NCBI RefSeq assembly: GCF_000021645.1
Contig: NC_011661.1
Location: 528,723 to 592,722 of the forward strand
DNA length: 64,000 bases
Direction: 5' to 3'
DNA from: Dictyoglomus turgidum DSM 6724
Lineage (GTDB): Bacteria > Dictyoglomota > Dictyoglomia > Dictyoglomales > Dictyoglomaceae
Below, in pieces: positions 5,905-13,564 of the stretch. The position numbers and the translations under genes were made by a program. How positions within the stretch are numbered: the first letter of the stretch is position 1; each line of letters begins with the position of its first letter. Under the pieces are notes generated by a model. It did no database searches. It saw only the letters and a list, made by a program, of their open reading frames with translations, and was not told where the DNA came from.

Positions 5905-6276
5905 ATGAAGATTGCAGTTGCGTCTAATGATGGAAAGAAAATTTCTGCTCATTTTGGAAGAACAAAAGGTTTTGTTATCTTTGAGATTGAAAATGGAGAG
6001 ATAAAAAGTAGAGAGTATAGATTGAATACTTTTACAGGACATGCAAGAGGCTTTAGCCATGATGATCCAGAGCACCATAAATATACTCATCCTGCAATAA
6101 TAGAAGCCCTAAAAGATTGTAAAGTAGTAATATCTCATGGAATGGGAAGAAGACTTTATGATGATTTGACTTCTGCAGGAATAGAGGTATATGTCACCGA
6201 TGAAACTGATGTGGATAAGGCAATAGAGCTTTATCTTAAAGGAGAACTTACTAATGTATCAGAACTTCTTGACTAA
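5905..6276 (+). CDS. NifX/NifB-type dinitrogenase cofactor-binding domain protein
   Basis: A 123-residue single-domain protein with AGGGAGGT before the ATG. MKIAVASNDGKKISAHFGRT, then an internal HDDPEHHKYTH stretch, ALKDCKVVISHGMGRRLYDDL and AGIEVYVTD match the NifX/NafY fold that binds Fe-Mo cofactor precursors in nitrogen fixers. Outside nitrogenase loci, as here, homologues sit with Mrp ATPases and small zinc ribbons and their cargo is unknown. The central His-rich loop supplies likely metal ligands. No nif structural genes are present. The next gene begins within its last codons. Confidence 0.83.
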   Translation: MKIAVASNDGKKISAHFGRTKGFVIFEIENGEIKSREYRLNTFTGHARGFSHDDPEHHKYTHPAIIEALKDCKVVISHGMGRRLYDDLTSAGIEVYVTDETDVDKAIELYLKGELTNVSELLD

Positions 6277-7146: not shown

Positions 7147-8202
7147 TTATCTTGAAAGGACTGCGATGAAATACATTCCACCTCCTGTAGGAAAATTACA
7201 ACTTATTAAAAGTCCAGAATTAGGATCATATTCAAACTGAGCGATAGGGGATCCACTAAACTGCACCTGGGTTAAAATTCCTCCGTATTGCCCTCTCCCT
7301 GCAACAGTCCACGAAAATCCTATTTGGGGAATATTTAAAATAGAATTTGTTTTAAGCAGTTGAGGATGGATATAAAAAGGACCTACATATTGATTACCAT
7401 AGCTTTTAGATGCTTTAGAACCATATGAAGTATTCATTTGGCTTGAAAAAGTGAGAATAGAACCTGTGCTTTTAGCTAAACTATATGATGTTGTTCCAAA
7501 GGGAGTAGGGTTTGAAAGACTTGTTGTTCCTCCAAAAAGACTTACTGAGGAGTAGAGCTGATAACTAGGTGATGCTTTTACAGCAGGAGGCATGGTATTT
7601 ATGGAGGGTAATGAGGTCTGGTACACTCCTAATAGGTCAACGTTTATTACTGTAGAAGAACCATCTCCATATTTTTCTAAAATTCTTACTTGTTGTATCA
7701 AACCATTTTTGTCGTAAACAAAAAAGTACCTAGTCATGGATTGATAATCTGAAGATTCTAAAAGGTAGTAATACAAGTTATTTCCTGCAGTTCCTGTTTC
7801 TTGCCTCATTCCTTGTGGAAATCCTGCAGCTTGAGCTTTTCTAACCTCATCTTGTACTTCCTTAGGGTCTAAATATACAACACCTTTTAAGGGTTTAATA
7901 CTGGAACTATATGAGGGATATCCTGCTGCAATAAATATGTCAAAGCCAATGCCATAAGCCATATTGTTTTCAATATTGGTTATAACGTAAATTTGATATC
8001 CTTGACCAGTACCTGCTGATGTTTGATCTCCTGATCCTCCCTGGAATTTATAAACTGCAACTAATCCAGGCTTTATCCAAGAAGGAACTTTGTTAGATTC
8101 AGGTAGCAGATCTTGTAACGTTAGTCCTTGCTGAGCAGAAGCTGAAAAAGACATTAAAAGAAGGGAGATTAAAAGGAAGATTAATATGAGTTTTGTTTTC
8201 AT
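7147..8202 (-). CDS. Secreted protein of unknown function
   Basis: A 351-residue protein with a clear signal peptide (MKTKLILIFLLISLLLMSFS, cleavage likely after ASA near residue 23). The mature part is rich in Ser, Gly, Tyr and Gln and looks beta-stranded: WIKPGLVAVYKFQGGSG, GGMYFIAVLSR at the end. It has no cysteine-rich or catalytic pattern I recognise. A GGGGGAA ribosome site precedes the ATG and a strong promoter lies upstream on the minus strand. It is divergent from the response-regulator gene, so it could be under the same system, but the sequence does not show that. Function unknown. Confidence 0.75.
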   Translation of the reverse strand: MKTKLILIFLLISLLLMSFSASAQQGLTLQDLLPESNKVPSWIKPGLVAVYKFQGGSGDQTSAGTGQGYQIYVITNIENNMAYGIGFDIFIAAGYPSYSSSIKPLKGVVYLDPKEVQDEVRKAQAAGFPQGMRQETGTAGNNLYYYLLESSDYQSMTRYFFVYDKNGLIQQVRILEKYGDGSSTVINVDLLGVYQTSLPSINTMPPAVKASPSYQLYSSVSLFGGTTSLSNPTPFGTTSYSLAKSTGSILTFSSQMNTSYGSKASKSYGNQYVGPFYIHPQLLKTNSILNIPQIGFSWTVAGRGQYGGILTQVQFSGSPIAQFEYDPNSGLLISCNFPTGGGMYFIAVLSR

Positions 8203-8326: not shown

Positions 8327-8340
8327 TATAATTTTTAACA
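8327..8340 (+). promoter_or_regulatory. -10 element giving a leaderless response-regulator mRNA
   Basis: TATAAT at 8327-8332 is followed seven bases later by the A of the ATG at 8340. Transcription would start at or next to the start codon, leaving no room for a ribosome site, and none is visible. No good -35 hexamer is seen, so activation may be needed. Confidence 0.6.
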
Positions 8341-9014
8341 TGAAAATATTAATAATTGAGGATGAGAAAAAGTTAGGGACAGCTCTTAAGAAGGGATTAG
8401 AAAAAGAGGGTTATGTAGTAGATTTAGCTTTTGATGGCGAAGAGGCAAAATATATTATAGAAAATAATTTTGAAGGTTATGATTTGGTAATATTGGACAT
8501 TATGCTACCTAAAATAGATGGCATTTCTTTATGTAAAGATTTGAGAGCAAAAAATTTTCAAGCCCCTATATTAATGCTTACTGCCAAAGATAAAGTAGAG
8601 GATAAAATCTTAGGACTTGAAAGTGGGGCAGATGATTATTTAGTAAAACCTTTCTCTTATGAAGAATTGTTAGCTCGGATTAGAGCTCTTCTTAGAAGAC
8701 CTAAGAATCTGATGCCTACAGTCTTAAAAGTAAAAGATATTTCCTTAGATACAGTTTCTAAAAGAGTTTTTAGGGGAGATATAGAGATCTTACTAACAAA
8801 CAAAGAATTTGCTATCTTGGAGTACCTTATGAGGAATGTGAATAGGATTATAAGTAAAGAACAAATTATATCTCATGTATGGGGCTACGAATCTGATACT
8901 CTTAGTAATGTAGTAGAAGCTCATATAAAGAATTTGAGAAAAAAATTAGAAAGGAAAAGGGATGAAAATATTATTGAGACCATTAGGGGAATGGGTTATC
9001 GGATTAAGGAGTAA
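8340..9014 (+). CDS. OmpR/PhoB-family response regulator
   Basis: A 224-residue two-domain regulator. Receiver domain at about 1-118: IIEDEKKLG acidic pair, LVILDIMLPKIDG with the phosphorylated Asp near residue 51, MLTAKD Thr and LVKPFSYEELLARI Lys. Winged-helix output domain at about 128-224 with LTNKEFAILEYLM, HVWGYES and VEAHIKNLRKKLE, ending RGMGYRIKE. The start at 8340 gives the standard MKILIIEDE N-terminus; extending to 8262 would add an atypical tail. It overlaps the histidine kinase gene and very probably pairs with it. Direct repeats spaced 11 bp downstream of the kinase gene are the likely binding site. Confidence 0.93.
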   Translation: MKILIIEDEKKLGTALKKGLEKEGYVVDLAFDGEEAKYIIENNFEGYDLVILDIMLPKIDGISLCKDLRAKNFQAPILMLTAKDKVEDKILGLESGADDYLVKPFSYEELLARIRALLRRPKNLMPTVLKVKDISLDTVSKRVFRGDIEILLTNKEFAILEYLMRNVNRIISKEQIISHVWGYESDTLSNVVEAHIKNLRKKLERKRDENIIETIRGMGYRIKE

Positions 9015-9972
9015 TATATTTATAAAATCAAGGATAAAGTTGACATTAGTTTATATAATAATTACTTTATTTATTCTTATCTTTTTTAGTTACTTGCTTT
9101 ATACCAATTACTCTAGAGAGGTAGAAGGAGATTTTGAGGGAGATATTAGTGACAAAGAGCAATTAGTTTTGGCTCAAAGAAGCTTGGAACGATTAAGAAT
9201 TCAAATAGTAATGGTAAGTGGAATTACTTTAGGATTAGTTGGAATTGTTAGCTTTATTCTTTCAGGAATTACTTTAAAGCCTATAAAAGAAAATATGGAA
9301 AGGGAAAGAAAGTTTATATCTGATGTAGCACATGAATTAAGGACTCCTCTTGCTATTATGAAAACTGAGTTAGAAGTTAGTTTAAAAGATCCTAAAATAA
9401 ATAAAAAACAATTATTGTCTGTTTTACAGAGTAACTTAGAAGAGGTAGAAAGACTTACTAAGTTGGCTGAAGATCTTTTGTACATTTTTAGGTTAGAAAT
9501 CAATGAAGTCGATTCTAATCTTGAAAGAATTTCTATCAAAGATATATCAGAAAAAGTAATAAAACTAATGACTCCCTATGCTAAAAAGAAGGAAATAGAT
9601 ATAGAGTTACAAGCTTCGGAGGATCTTTATATATTAGGAAATCCTGAAGAGATTCGAAGGATTCTTTTTAATCTTATAAAAAACGCCATTGATTACAATA
9701 AATATAAAGGAAAAGTAAAAGTAAGGTTTATAAAAGATAATAAATATTTAGTATTAGAAATTGAAGATACAGGAATAGGAATACCTAAGGATGAGATTCC
9801 TCTTATATTTAATAGATTTTATAGAGTAGATAAATCCCGTTCTTCTCAGATACAGGGGACAGGATTAGGATTATCTATAGTTAAAGGTATTGTTGACAAA
9901 TATAATGGAAAGATTATAGTAGAGAGCAAATTAGGAGAAGGCACTATTTTTAAAATACTTCTTCCTATTTAA
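8962..9972 (+). CDS. Sensor histidine kinase (two-TM, short sensor loop)
   Basis: Membrane kinase partner of the preceding regulator. Two membrane helices (about residues 28-48 and 82-103) enclose a short, acidic extracytoplasmic loop of some 30 residues (EVEGDFEGDISDKEQ). H-box FISDVAHELRTPL, N-box LIKNAIDYN, G1 DTGIGIP, F-box FNRFYRVDKSRS and G2 GTGLGLSIV are intact. The start is uncertain: ATG 8962 lies deep in the regulator gene, while AAGGAG just before 9012 would serve a start near 9016-9022, where only ATA codons are in frame. The short acidic loop suits cation, peptide or envelope-stress sensing, but the signal is not known. Confidence 0.88.
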   Translation: MKILLRPLGEWVIGLRSNIFIKSRIKLTLVYIIITLFILIFFSYLLYTNYSREVEGDFEGDISDKEQLVLAQRSLERLRIQIVMVSGITLGLVGIVSFILSGITLKPIKENMERERKFISDVAHELRTPLAIMKTELEVSLKDPKINKKQLLSVLQSNLEEVERLTKLAEDLLYIFRLEINEVDSNLERISIKDISEKVIKLMTPYAKKKEIDIELQASEDLYILGNPEEIRRILFNLIKNAIDYNKYKGKVKVRFIKDNKYLVLEIEDTGIGIPKDEIPLIFNRFYRVDKSRSSQIQGTGLGLSIVKGIVDKYNGKIIVESKLGEGTIFKILLPI

Positions 9973-9979
9973 TCTGAAT

Positions 9980-10034
9980 CTTCATCTAAAATTCATTTTA
10001 TCTTCATTTTGTCTTCATCCTCCTTTCCTATAAT
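9980..10034 (+). promoter_or_regulatory. Four 11-bp direct repeats and -10: probable response-regulator box
   Basis: CTTCAT or ATTCAT begins at 9980, 9991, 10002 and 10013, an exact 11-base period, on one face of the helix. TATAAT follows at 10029-10034; the last repeats sit where the -35 should be, and no -35 consensus is present. Tandem 11-bp half sites covering the -35 are how PhoB/OmpR-type activators bind. Being directly after the kinase gene and before a small secreted protein, this is the best candidate site for the neighbouring regulator. Confidence 0.7.
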
Positions 10035-10068
10035 CTTTCTTGAAATTGAACGGAAAGGAGGTGAAAAA

Positions 10069-10377
10069 ATGAAAAAATTACTTATCTTTTTAGGAGTGGC
10101 TATTCTTACCTTAGTGGTAGTTTTTGGAGTATCCAATATAACAAAACAAAAGGTATATGCTCAAACATCAACACTAACTCAGACCTCTACCACAATTCAG
10201 ACTCAACAAAAAGCTGTAGATAACGATCAAGAAATAAAAGATGATCAAGAGATAGAAAAAGGAGAAGTAGAAGAAGCAAAAGAAGTAAAAGAGATTGAGG
10301 ATGACAATCTTCCAAACGGTGGGCATCAAGATCCTGAAGGAGTAAATGTGGATCACCAATTTGAAGGAGTAGAGTAA
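10069..10377 (+). CDS. Small secreted acidic protein, probable two-component target
   Basis: A 102-residue protein with GGAAAGGAGG before the ATG. Residues 1-32 form a signal peptide ending KVYAQ; then a Thr/Gln-rich linker, a highly acidic Glu/Lys stretch (about residues 45-80) and a compact end, GGHQDPEGVNVDHQFEGVE. The last segment, with its Gly, Asp and His spacing, looks like a metal- or calcium-binding tail and is the least repetitive part. No enzyme motif. It lies downstream of four phased repeats, so it is probably induced by the adjacent two-component system and may act in sensing or protecting the envelope; that role is inference. Confidence 0.75.
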   Translation: MKKLLIFLGVAILTLVVVFGVSNITKQKVYAQTSTLTQTSTTIQTQQKAVDNDQEIKDDQEIEKGEVEEAKEVKEIEDDNLPNGGHQDPEGVNVDHQFEGVE

Positions 10378-10403
10378 AGGATTAGTAGAACCCTCCCAGT
10401 TTG

Positions 10404-10450
10404 ACCCTCACCAAAGTCTTTTTAATGGGACTTTGGTGAGGGTTTTTTAT
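10404..10450 (+). terminator. Strong intrinsic terminator
   Basis: A 15-bp stem (10404-10418 with 10429-10443, core CCCTCACCAAAGTC) with a 10-base loop is followed by TTTTTTATTTTTT. It closes the two-component/secreted-protein unit. Confidence 0.92.
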
Positions 10451-10669: not shown

Positions 10670-10702
10670 GAAGCATATGTGGAAAAGGAGGAGAGGTTAG
10701 AG

Positions 10703-11326
10703 ATGAATCTTTTTCTTACAGAAAGTCTTGAAGATTATATTCTCTCTATTTATGAATTGCAATCTCGAATTGTGAGAATAAAGGATATTGCAAGACTTAA
10801 GAAAGTAAAACTCCCATCAGTTGTGAATGCTATAAAAATTCTTTCTGATATGGGTTTGGTTGAACATGAAAAGTATGGGTATGTTACTCTTACTGATTAT
10901 GGTATAGAGGTTGCTCAGGAACTTTATAGAAGAAGAAAATTACTTTTTAGATTTTTTACAGAAATACTTGGGGTAGATGAAAACACTGCTTTACAAGATA
11001 GCCATAGAATAGAGCATGATTTATCTCCTAAGTCTTTAGAAAAGCTTACAGAGTTTACAGAAAGATTTATTAAATCCAGAAAGGAGGAAAAAGACATGCC
11101 TTTAACCCTAAAGGATTTAAAAGTAGGCGAGGAAGGGAAAATTGTAGAACTTAGAGGGGGTGGAGGAATAATTAGTAGACTTCTTTCTATGGGAGCTGTT
11201 CCCGGCACTATTGTAAAGGTGGAAAAGATAGCACCCTTAGGAGACCCTATAGAGATTTTAATTTTAGGATATCATCTTTCTTTAAGAAAAGAAGAAGCAG
11301 AAAAGATTTTAGTGGAGAGGATATGA
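10703..11326 (+). CDS. DtxR-family metalloregulator with C-terminal FeoA/SH3 domain
   Basis: A 207-residue iron- or manganese-dependent repressor. HTH about residues 1-60 (LTESLEDYILSIYEL, VRIKDIARLKKVKLPSVVNA), metal-binding and dimerisation region to about 130 (LGVDENTALQDSHRIEHDLS), then an SH3-like FeoA domain from about 132. The ATG at 10703 lies seven bases after GGAGGAGAGG; an upstream in-frame GTG at 10679 has no such site. An internal ATG at 11096 carries its own AAGGAGG, so the FeoA domain may also be made alone. It is in the operon it probably represses. Confidence 0.88.
   Translation: MNLFLTESLEDYILSIYELQSRIVRIKDIARLKKVKLPSVVNAIKILSDMGLVEHEKYGYVTLTDYGIEVAQELYRRRKLLFRFFTEILGVDENTALQDSHRIEHDLSPKSLEKLTEFTERFIKSRKEEKDMPLTLKDLKVGEEGKIVELRGGGGIISRLLSMGAVPGTIVKVEKIAPLGDPIEILILGYHLSLRKEEAEKILVERI
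11081..11098 (+). promoter_or_regulatory. Internal ribosome site and in-frame ATG before the FeoA domain
   Basis: AAGGAGG at 11081-11087 is eight bases before an ATG at 11096 that is in frame with the DtxR protein (131 codons after its start) and sits exactly where the FeoA-like domain begins (MPLTLKDLKVGEEGKI). It would produce a 76-residue free FeoA-like protein. Confidence 0.5.
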
Positions 11327-11538
11327 TGGCTTTATCATTTGTAAAAGAGGGACAGGAAGTAAAAGTTATAGCCATACGTGGAGGAAAAGGTGCTGTTCAA
11401 AGACTTGCAGAGATGGGGATTTTGCCAGGGGTAAGGATAAAAGTAATTTCAAATTCTGGAGGACCTATAGTTATTGCCTTGGGAAATTCAAGAATAGCCT
11501 TAGGAAAGGGTTTAGCTTCTAAAATTATTTGTGCTTAA
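11323..11538 (+). CDS. feoA: FeoA-type SH3 domain protein
   Basis: A 71-residue protein of the FeoA family, small cytoplasmic SH3-like partners of the FeoB transporter. FVKEGQEVKVIAIRGGKGAV, RLAEMGILPGVRIKVISNSG and GNSRIALGKGLASKI follow the family pattern of Gly-rich turns around LxxMGI-PG. Start ATG overlaps the DtxR-family stop (ATGATG, four bases), so translation is coupled. It is followed at once by feoB. Together with the FeoA domain fused to the regulator, the operon has two FeoA-like modules. Confidence 0.88.
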   Translation: MMALSFVKEGQEVKVIAIRGGKGAVQRLAEMGILPGVRIKVISNSGGPIVIALGNSRIALGKGLASKIICA

Positions 11539-11554
11539 AAGGAGGAAAATCTCT

Positions 11555-13564
11555 ATGGAGAAAAAAGTTGTAAAAGTTGCTTTAGCAGGGAACCCTAATA
11601 GTGGGAAATCTACAATTTTTAACGCCCTTACAGGAGGGCATGCTCATGTGGGAAACTGGCCAGGAGTTACAGTGGAAAGAAAGGATGGTACCTTTAGGTA
11701 TAGAGACTACGAGGTGATAGTTACTGATCTTCCTGGAACTTATAGCCTTACTGCCTTTTCTATTGATGAAAGGATAGCTCGGGACTTTATACTTAAGGAG
11801 AAACCTGATGTGGTAGTTTGTGTGGCTGATGCTACAAATCTTCTAAGAAGTCTTTATCTTTTTGTTCTTTTAAGGGAGTTGGGAGCTAATGCTATATTAG
11901 ATTTAAATATGGGAGATTTAATAGAGGGAAAAATAAAGGTAGATATAGAAGGAATGGAAAAAGCTTTAGGAGCTCCTGTGGTTATAACTTCAGGGATAAA
12001 GGGTACTGGAATTAATGAACTTAAAGAAGAAATTGTAAAGGCAAAAGATAGGGAGGTAGCTCCCTTTAGAATTAACTATGGAGATATTGAAGAAGCCATA
12101 AGAAAATTAGAGGATAAGCTTTCTGGTTATTCTTTACCTTATGATAAAAGATTTTTAGCTATAAAGCTCTTAGAAGGAGATCCTATTTTCAAAGAAGAGC
12201 TAAGAAGTTTGGGATATGAAGAAATAGTAGAATTAGCAGAAAAAGAGGCTTTAACATTCGAACAAAAATTTGGATATGATTTGGAGACAGCAATTATTGA
12301 AAAAAGATATGGTTATATTGATGCTATTGTAAGAAAATATACTCAAAGAATTGCACCTATAGAGGAAAAACTTTCTATTTCAGATAAAATAGATAAGATT
12401 GTTATTAATAAGTATTTAGGCATTCCTATTTTTGCTTTGTTTATGTGGATAACCTTTGAACTAACTTTTAGAATTGGAGGCTTCTTCTCAGATTATATAG
12501 ATTCTTTCTTTAGTGGTTTAGGAGGAATTCTTGAAAATTATCTTACCTCTATTAATGCTCCTTTTCCATTAATATCTTTTATAAAAGACGGTATAATTGG
12601 TGGATTAGGGTCTGTGATTGTTTTTCTACCGAATATTTTAGTTCTATTTCTATTTCTCTCATTCTTAGAAGATGTGGGATACATGGCAAGAGCTGCTTTT
12701 GTGGTGGATAAAGCTATGTATACTATAGGGCTTCCTGGGAGATCTTTTATACCTATGATTTTAGGATTTGGCTGTAATGTTCCTGCTATTATGTCTACAA
12801 GAACTATTCCTGAGGAAAGGGATAGAATATTAACAATTCTTATAAATCCCTTCATGTCTTGTACTGCAAGGTTGCCTATATATGTTCTTTTTACAGGAAT
12901 ATTCTTTGAGAAAAATCAAGGTCTAATCATACTATCTTTATATGCTTTAGGGATTTTTGTTGCTATTTTCTCAGCAAAGATCTTTAGAACTATCATTCCT
13001 TCTCTTAAAGGTCCTATTTCACCGTTAATTATGGAACTTCCTCCTTATAGGCTTCCTACCTTAAAAGGGGTATGGATTCATGCTTGGGAGAGGAGTAGGG
13101 AATTCTTAAAAAAAGCCGGAACTATAATTTTCCTTGGAGTTGTATTGATTTGGTTCTTAGCAAGTGTACCTTTTTCATCTGAATACGGTAGTGAAGAAAG
13201 TATTATTGGAAGATTAGGGAAAATAATAGCTCCTCTTTTAGGACCTGCAGGATTTCCCTATTGGCAAATAGCAGTAGCTTTGCTTTTTGGAATTTTGGCT
13301 AAGGAAGTGGTGATAGGAACCTTAGGTACCTTATTTGGGGGAGAAGAAAATCTTGCGAAGACTTTACAAAATCTTTTTACTCCTCTTTCTGCTTACTCTT
13401 TTATGATAATGTCACTGCTTTATATGCCATGTTTGGCTACTATTGGAGTAATTAAGAGGGAAACCAATTGGAAATGGGCTCTATTTTCTGTATTTTACAG
13501 CATTTTGGTAGGATGGACTATAAGTGTACTTTTTTACCAGATAGGTAGAGTTTTTGCAAAATAA
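11555..13564 (+). CDS. feoB: Ferrous iron transporter FeoB
   Basis: A 669-residue inner-membrane Fe(II) importer. N-terminal G domain: G1 GNPNSGKST (about 13-21), G2 NWPGVTVE, G3 DLPGTYSL, G4-like LNMGD and a G5 region, then a helical GDI-like linker to about 255. The rest has the paired gate segments and about eight membrane helices, with FGCNVPAI and FMSCTARLPIYV, the two Cys-containing motifs of the family. ATG 11555 is eight bases after AGGAGG. Length is slightly under the E. coli protein, as in other thermophiles. Probably repressed by the DtxR-family protein when iron is high. Confidence 0.95.
   Translation: MEKKVVKVALAGNPNSGKSTIFNALTGGHAHVGNWPGVTVERKDGTFRYRDYEVIVTDLPGTYSLTAFSIDERIARDFILKEKPDVVVCVADATNLLRSLYLFVLLRELGANAILDLNMGDLIEGKIKVDIEGMEKALGAPVVITSGIKGTGINELKEEIVKAKDREVAPFRINYGDIEEAIRKLEDKLSGYSLPYDKRFLAIKLLEGDPIFKEELRSLGYEEIVELAEKEALTFEQKFGYDLETAIIEKRYGYIDAIVRKYTQRIAPIEEKLSISDKIDKIVINKYLGIPIFALFMWITFELTFRIGGFFSDYIDSFFSGLGGILENYLTSINAPFPLISFIKDGIIGGLGSVIVFLPNILVLFLFLSFLEDVGYMARAAFVVDKAMYTIGLPGRSFIPMILGFGCNVPAIMSTRTIPEERDRILTILINPFMSCTARLPIYVLFTGIFFEKNQGLIILSLYALGIFVAIFSAKIFRTIIPSLKGPISPLIMELPPYRLPTLKGVWIHAWERSREFLKKAGTIIFLGVVLIWFLASVPFSSEYGSEESIIGRLGKIIAPLLGPAGFPYWQIAVALLFGILAKEVVIGTLGTLFGGEENLAKTLQNLFTPLSAYSFMIMSLLYMPCLATIGVIKRETNWKWALFSVFYSILVGWTISVLFYQIGRVFAK

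Follow-up and report, generated by a model that had tools for sequence, protein, structure and literature searches.

The window, by which we mean the whole analyzed stretch of 64,000 nucleotides from Dictyoglomus turgidum DSM 6724, contains a two-component system followed by the gene of a small acidic protein, all on the forward strand. The response regulator gene (8340..9014) encodes a 224 amino acid protein in which both the receiver (Response_reg) and the winged-helix Trans_reg_C domains are matched in Pfam (E 4.5e-29 and 1.4e-27). Its best NCBIfam match is RppA (NF041734), full-length, with 275.5 bits against a cut-off of 250, while its score for the heavy-metal CztR/SilR/CopR subfamily is 244, below the cut-off of 279. 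An initial sequence-only reading had placed the system in the OmpR/PhoB class and these matches agree with it. Comparison with the sister genus (L003) suggests a putative -10 element of the regulator gene, TATAAT (8327..8332, +), from which the transcript would be nearly leaderless. The sensor histidine kinase gene (8962..9972) overlaps the regulator gene and encodes a 336 amino acid protein with HisKA and HATPase_c domains. By inspection, the kinase has two transmembrane segments, with limits set by eye, that flank an acidic extracytoplasmic loop of ~31 amino acids (NYSREVEGDFEGDISDKEQ..., 9106..9198, +), the short acidic sensor of the same reading, and it has no HAMP domain. Both the overlapping start and the N-terminus of the kinase are conserved among homologues. 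The kinase does not reach the RppB family in NCBIfam (233 bits against a cut-off of 400, with a match that covers residues 72-335 only). In the sister genus a frameshift close to an A-run, within the part for the extracytoplasmic loop (L003 ~6160-6175), interrupts the kinase gene; it is either an assembly error or real. Divergent from the regulator gene, 7147-8202 on the reverse strand encodes a 351 amino acid signal-peptide protein without a Pfam or NCBIfam match.

The small gene (10069..10377, +) encodes a 102 amino acid protein that consists of a predicted signal peptide (residues 1-31, 10069..10161, +; VYA|Q, with a model helix at 2-23), an acidic linker and a conserved C-terminal tail, GGHQDPEGVNVDHQFEGVE (10318..10374, +), as had been described from the letters alone. 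An intrinsic terminator (10403..10444, +) lies 3' of the gene, which indicates that it is monocistronic. Directly downstream, at 10679-13564, translation shows a DtxR-like regulator fused to FeoA, a second FeoA and FeoB; these genes are not a conserved neighbour of the protein family described below.

Upstream of the small gene there are four TTCAT half-sites on the forward strand (9981..9985, 9992..9996, 10003..10007 and 10014..10018). Their starts are separated by exact 11-bp steps and the array spans 9981-10018. The -10 element TATAAT (10029..10034, +), whose assignment is also supported by the placement of TANNNT in other loci, comes 10 nt after the last half-site and therefore the array fills the -35 region, in line with the repeats noted at first sight. 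When the 96 nt between the kinase and the small gene were dinucleotide-shuffled 20,000 times, a four-copy 11-bp run of any 5-mer was found 0 times and three-copy runs occurred 6 times. The array is also the only perfect match to three TTCAY half-sites in the 1,855,560-bp genome. The spacer between the operator and the -10 element (10019-10028, CCTCCTTTCC) perfectly complements the Shine-Dalgarno region (10052..10061, +; GGAAAGGAGG), which is one arm of inverted repeat I3. The Shine-Dalgarno could be masked in transcripts that read through from the kinase gene and not in those that start at the regulated promoter.

The small protein belongs to a family, here termed the DHQFEG-tail family, that is present in at least four phyla: Dictyoglomota, Actinomycetota, Chloroflexota and Patescibacteria. 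In the second genus of the same bacterial family the order regulator, kinase, small gene is kept and the linker has diverged; its small gene also keeps TTCAT-N6-TTCAT 10 nt before TATAAT. Scanning with the back-translated pattern [ND][VA]DHQF[ED]G added more than 30 loci, from Actinomycetota, Chloroflexota, Patescibacteria and other groups, in which the open frames end two residues past the motif. Since this pattern forces its own residues, conservation was judged only on held-out members that were found by a tail profile alone, in a whole-genome sampling without residue forcing. The tail profile was found in 15/397 Actinomycetota, 10/301 Chloroflexota and 4/380 genomes of a Patescibacteria-type group (these counts include the starting genomes) and in 2/7 Dictyoglomota. 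In one Chloroflexota locus (L133 1152-2296) two tail-family genes lie in tandem, the first of them flanked by a divergently oriented regulator gene, and in genome G026 two copies are located on different contigs. A similar phylum distribution has been described for heliorhodopsin (PMC8612252), which is not among the neighbour families listed in our neighbour tally. The secreted protein family was undescribed and unnamed in the sources searched: five family members gave no match over cut-off in Pfam and NCBIfam, a PDB search for the tail motif returned chance matches only, and a text search of the literature for the motif found no match. No match to the family was found in plasmid and phage sequences.

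The layout of the family is a signal peptide, a disordered acidic linker and the C-terminus GGHxDxxGxNVDHQFEGxE. A small-x-Ala site after the hydrophobic segment, within residues 16-42, is present in 55/55 members. Their mature part has a median length of 74 amino acids and a median net charge of -12, and Cys is absent in 54/55. Modelling in AlphaFold2 with 25 sequences gave a mean pLDDT of 57.7, with nothing folded apart from the signal helix. The tail motif is in strict register with the C-terminus and, among the held-out members, the last residue is Glu or Gln in 25/25, Gly-3 is kept in 24/25, Gln-6 in 23/25, His-7 in 20/25, and Asp-8 and Phe-5 each in 18/25. Many Actinomycetota and Chloroflexota members have a second motif in the middle of the protein, DTDxxQxGDQTTPD (alignment A5, columns ~92-107), which is absent from Dictyoglomota. 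Two other readings of the tail were considered and set aside. An EF-hand in DQDGVNVDHQFE was rejected, since the Gly6/Ile8 positions do not fit. Mimicry between the 'FEG' of the kinase loop and the 'FEG' of the tail is not claimed, since comparison with shuffled loops gave p values of 0.002-0.014 in 2/23 loci and was mostly not significant.

The search for the tail near other two-component genes, which had been proposed as a check, was strongly positive. A regulator or kinase similar to that of the window adjoins the tail gene in 50/55 family loci, and for two of the five exceptions (L042 and L070) the contig ends within ~0.5 kb upstream. Other conserved neighbours of the tail genes were not found in the neighbour tally. 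Among the seven Dictyoglomota genomes, the cognate regulator (E <= 1e-60) and the tail gene occur in the same two and in no others. On the regulator tree the tail-linked labels are clustered (8 changes versus 16.6 when shuffled), and the window regulator belongs to a supported clade of seven regulators, every one of them tail-linked, from Dictyoglomota, Coriobacteriia and Patescibacteria-type genomes. The kinase type of the window, with a short loop and no HAMP, accompanies tail-linked regulators, and unlinked regulators in the same genomes adjoin other kinase types. In Chloroflexota and in several Actinomycetota loci the kinases have, as judged from sequence, larger ectodomains and HAMP-like linkers. 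The tail is therefore common to two unrelated kinase sensor types, which argues against a simple contact between the tail and the kinase ectodomain. In two loci (L016 and L065) the tail gene is flanked on both sides by a two-component system, a divergent one with a large-ectodomain kinase and a downstream one with a short-loop kinase.

The operator is also kept in these loci. Of the 30 discovery genes, 16 have YTCAY-N6-YTCAY in the 150 nt upstream, against a shuffle mean of 0.09, and other spacings from 1 to 15 gave zero. As the motif was defined on this set, it was tested on 24 genes recovered afterwards with nothing but the tail profile; 15 of them have it, against a shuffle mean of 0.084 and a maximum of 2, with 0-1 for other spacings, though near relatives among the held-out loci make these counts overstate independence. 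The exact match is missing in ~43% of the family genes, several of which have near matches. In 19/31 loci, TANNNT starts 10 nt (14 loci) or 11 nt (5 loci) past the second half-site. Conservation of the repeats upstream of homologues, on which the sequence-only reading depended, was thus seen in both sets, and its view that the adjacent two-component system acts through these repeats is supported, with operator and synteny kept in other phyla. The operator often precedes the regulator gene as well: it lies at -38 to -40 from the regulator start in 7/9 loci with a collinear and 9/18 with a divergent arrangement, and the sister genus has an intact TTCAT-N6-TTCAT at -39. These positions imply autoregulation from a nearly leaderless transcript. 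At the regulator promoter of the window the operator is degenerate and the -10 is in place.

By looking at the whole genome we can ask what else the operator may control. Scanning for the operator plus a -10 gave four occurrences, which does not exceed the 3-10 obtained with control spacings, and among these sites only the array studied here is a multi-repeat at a normal distance before an evident gene. YTCAY-N6-YTCAY was not found in the 10-kb region that contains pstC-pstA-pstB, nor in the 14-kb region with the locus of the PAS-kinase and the PhoB-like regulator of this genome (L177 6170-6868). Based on the scan and on these two empty regions, the secreted protein is the only convincing target in this genome.

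Based on these data, the kinase-regulator pair appears to switch on the small acidic secreted protein through the four-repeat operator. The explanation that fits best, and that we consider fairly probable, is a two-component circuit that is self-contained and dedicated to a secreted output. In such a circuit the short-loop, HAMP-less kinase would phosphorylate the OmpR/PhoB-type regulator, which would then bind directly and head-to-tail to the 11-bp repeats (YTCAY-N6-YTCAY) that replace the -35 element and stop 10-11 nt short of the -10. The bound regulator would recruit RNA polymerase in a PhoB-like manner, acting as an activator rather than a repressor, and in many homologues it would also activate its own gene. 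The main product would be an exported, intrinsically disordered acidic protein that displays its conserved C-terminal motif outside the membrane, and it probably feeds back or acts at the cell surface. In the most speculative step, the tail may close a feedback loop through a surface partner or through the cue of the kinase; we favour feedback on the kinase via such a partner or cue, held in common by tail and kinase, since no other output of the circuit is evident. A broader proposal, which we put forward only tentatively and hold to be doubtful, is that this is a cross-phylum module of largely single-membrane bacteria, in which a self-activating system has about one target, the secreted disordered acidic protein, and the nearly constant tail serves outside the cell as a recognition element of a new type (a co-sensor or public signal) that closes the feedback loop on the kinase.

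Other explanations of the locus place its components differently. One option, which goes back to the sequence-only reading and seems rather unlikely, is that the secreted protein is a buffer or co-sensor of metal (or protons), with His, Asp and Glu of the tail binding a divalent cation that is also sensed by the acidic loop of the kinase. SilE/PcoE and ZraP are known to sit beside metal-responsive two-component systems, and the acidic protein, the conserved His and Asp of the tail, the closeness of the regulator to RppA and to CztR/SilR/CopR and the iron uptake genes just downstream would all suit this role. However, the putative ligands His-7 and Asp-8 vary more than the non-ligands Gln-6 and Gly-3, the first His of the tail is replaced by Asn in L084, in L065 and in one of the L133 copies, metal genes are not conserved neighbours and nearly all members lack Cys. 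The tail seems to fit better as a short protein-recognition motif than as a strict metal site. A peptide pheromone, exported and cleaved to activate the kinase while the regulator auto-induces both genes in a quorum-sensing style, might be expected to have a secreted precursor with a motif in strict C-terminal register, an autoregulated regulator and a co-regulated precursor gene, and all of these can be recognized here, the co-regulation from the shared operator. Yet pheromones usually diverge together with the receptors that sense them, and this tail hardly changes from phylum to phylum and is paired with two kinase types; the kinase does not have the multi-transmembrane receptor typical of peptide-sensing kinases, and a dedicated exporter or protease was not found next door, so that this role is improbable.

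The repeats themselves could also be an ordinary PHO box of the phosphate regulon, whose link to the adjacent system is incidental. PHO boxes are likewise 11-nt direct repeats and their cores, CTGTCAT in E. coli and GTTCACC in Streptomyces, are close to TTCAY (PMC4415409). This origin is nevertheless highly improbable, since the operator tracks the tail-linked regulator across phyla and sits at that regulator's own promoter, and both the pstC-pstA-pstB region and the PAS-kinase/PhoB-like regulator region are without such a repeat.

An undescribed secreted family is defined here along with the regulator, kinase and operator that appear to be dedicated to it. It spans distant phyla and reaches the uncultured Patescibacteria, in which little is understood of such systems. 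Because the operator is conserved, the regulon should be predictable from sequence, and with a target that is nearly exclusive the function of the secreted tail can be tested directly. Should the tail prove to be a co-sensor or a signal, two-component systems would gain an extracellular partner of a new kind.

Comparison with known systems helps to place this circuit. Promoters of the PhoB/PHO-box class share with the array promoter of the window the head-to-tail 11-bp repeats in place of the -35 element and a fixed distance from the repeats to the -10, as in E. coli; in contrast, the window array is absent from the pst operon, its regulator is a different one and it is linked to a secreted protein, not to phosphate genes. 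RppA (NF041734) and the CztR/SilR/CopR regulators share a full-length domain match with the window regulator, but the window kinase is under the RppB cut-off, and nickel, copper and photosystem genes were not recognized nearby. Peptide quorum-sensing cassettes of the ComCDE and plantaricin type likewise have a precursor gene that is co-regulated with an autoregulated kinase/regulator pair through direct repeats, whereas here the motif is nearly constant and not hypervariable, exporter and protease are absent and the kinase has two transmembrane segments. CpxP, Spy/ZraP, SilE/PcoE and MgrB are small extracytoplasmic partners of two-component systems, and they too are small exported products under a neighbouring regulator, with feedback possible. 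For the tail family no sequence similarity was found in Pfam or NCBIfam, and it differs in being disordered and Cys-free, in having a conserved C-terminal motif and in belonging mostly to single-membrane phyla.
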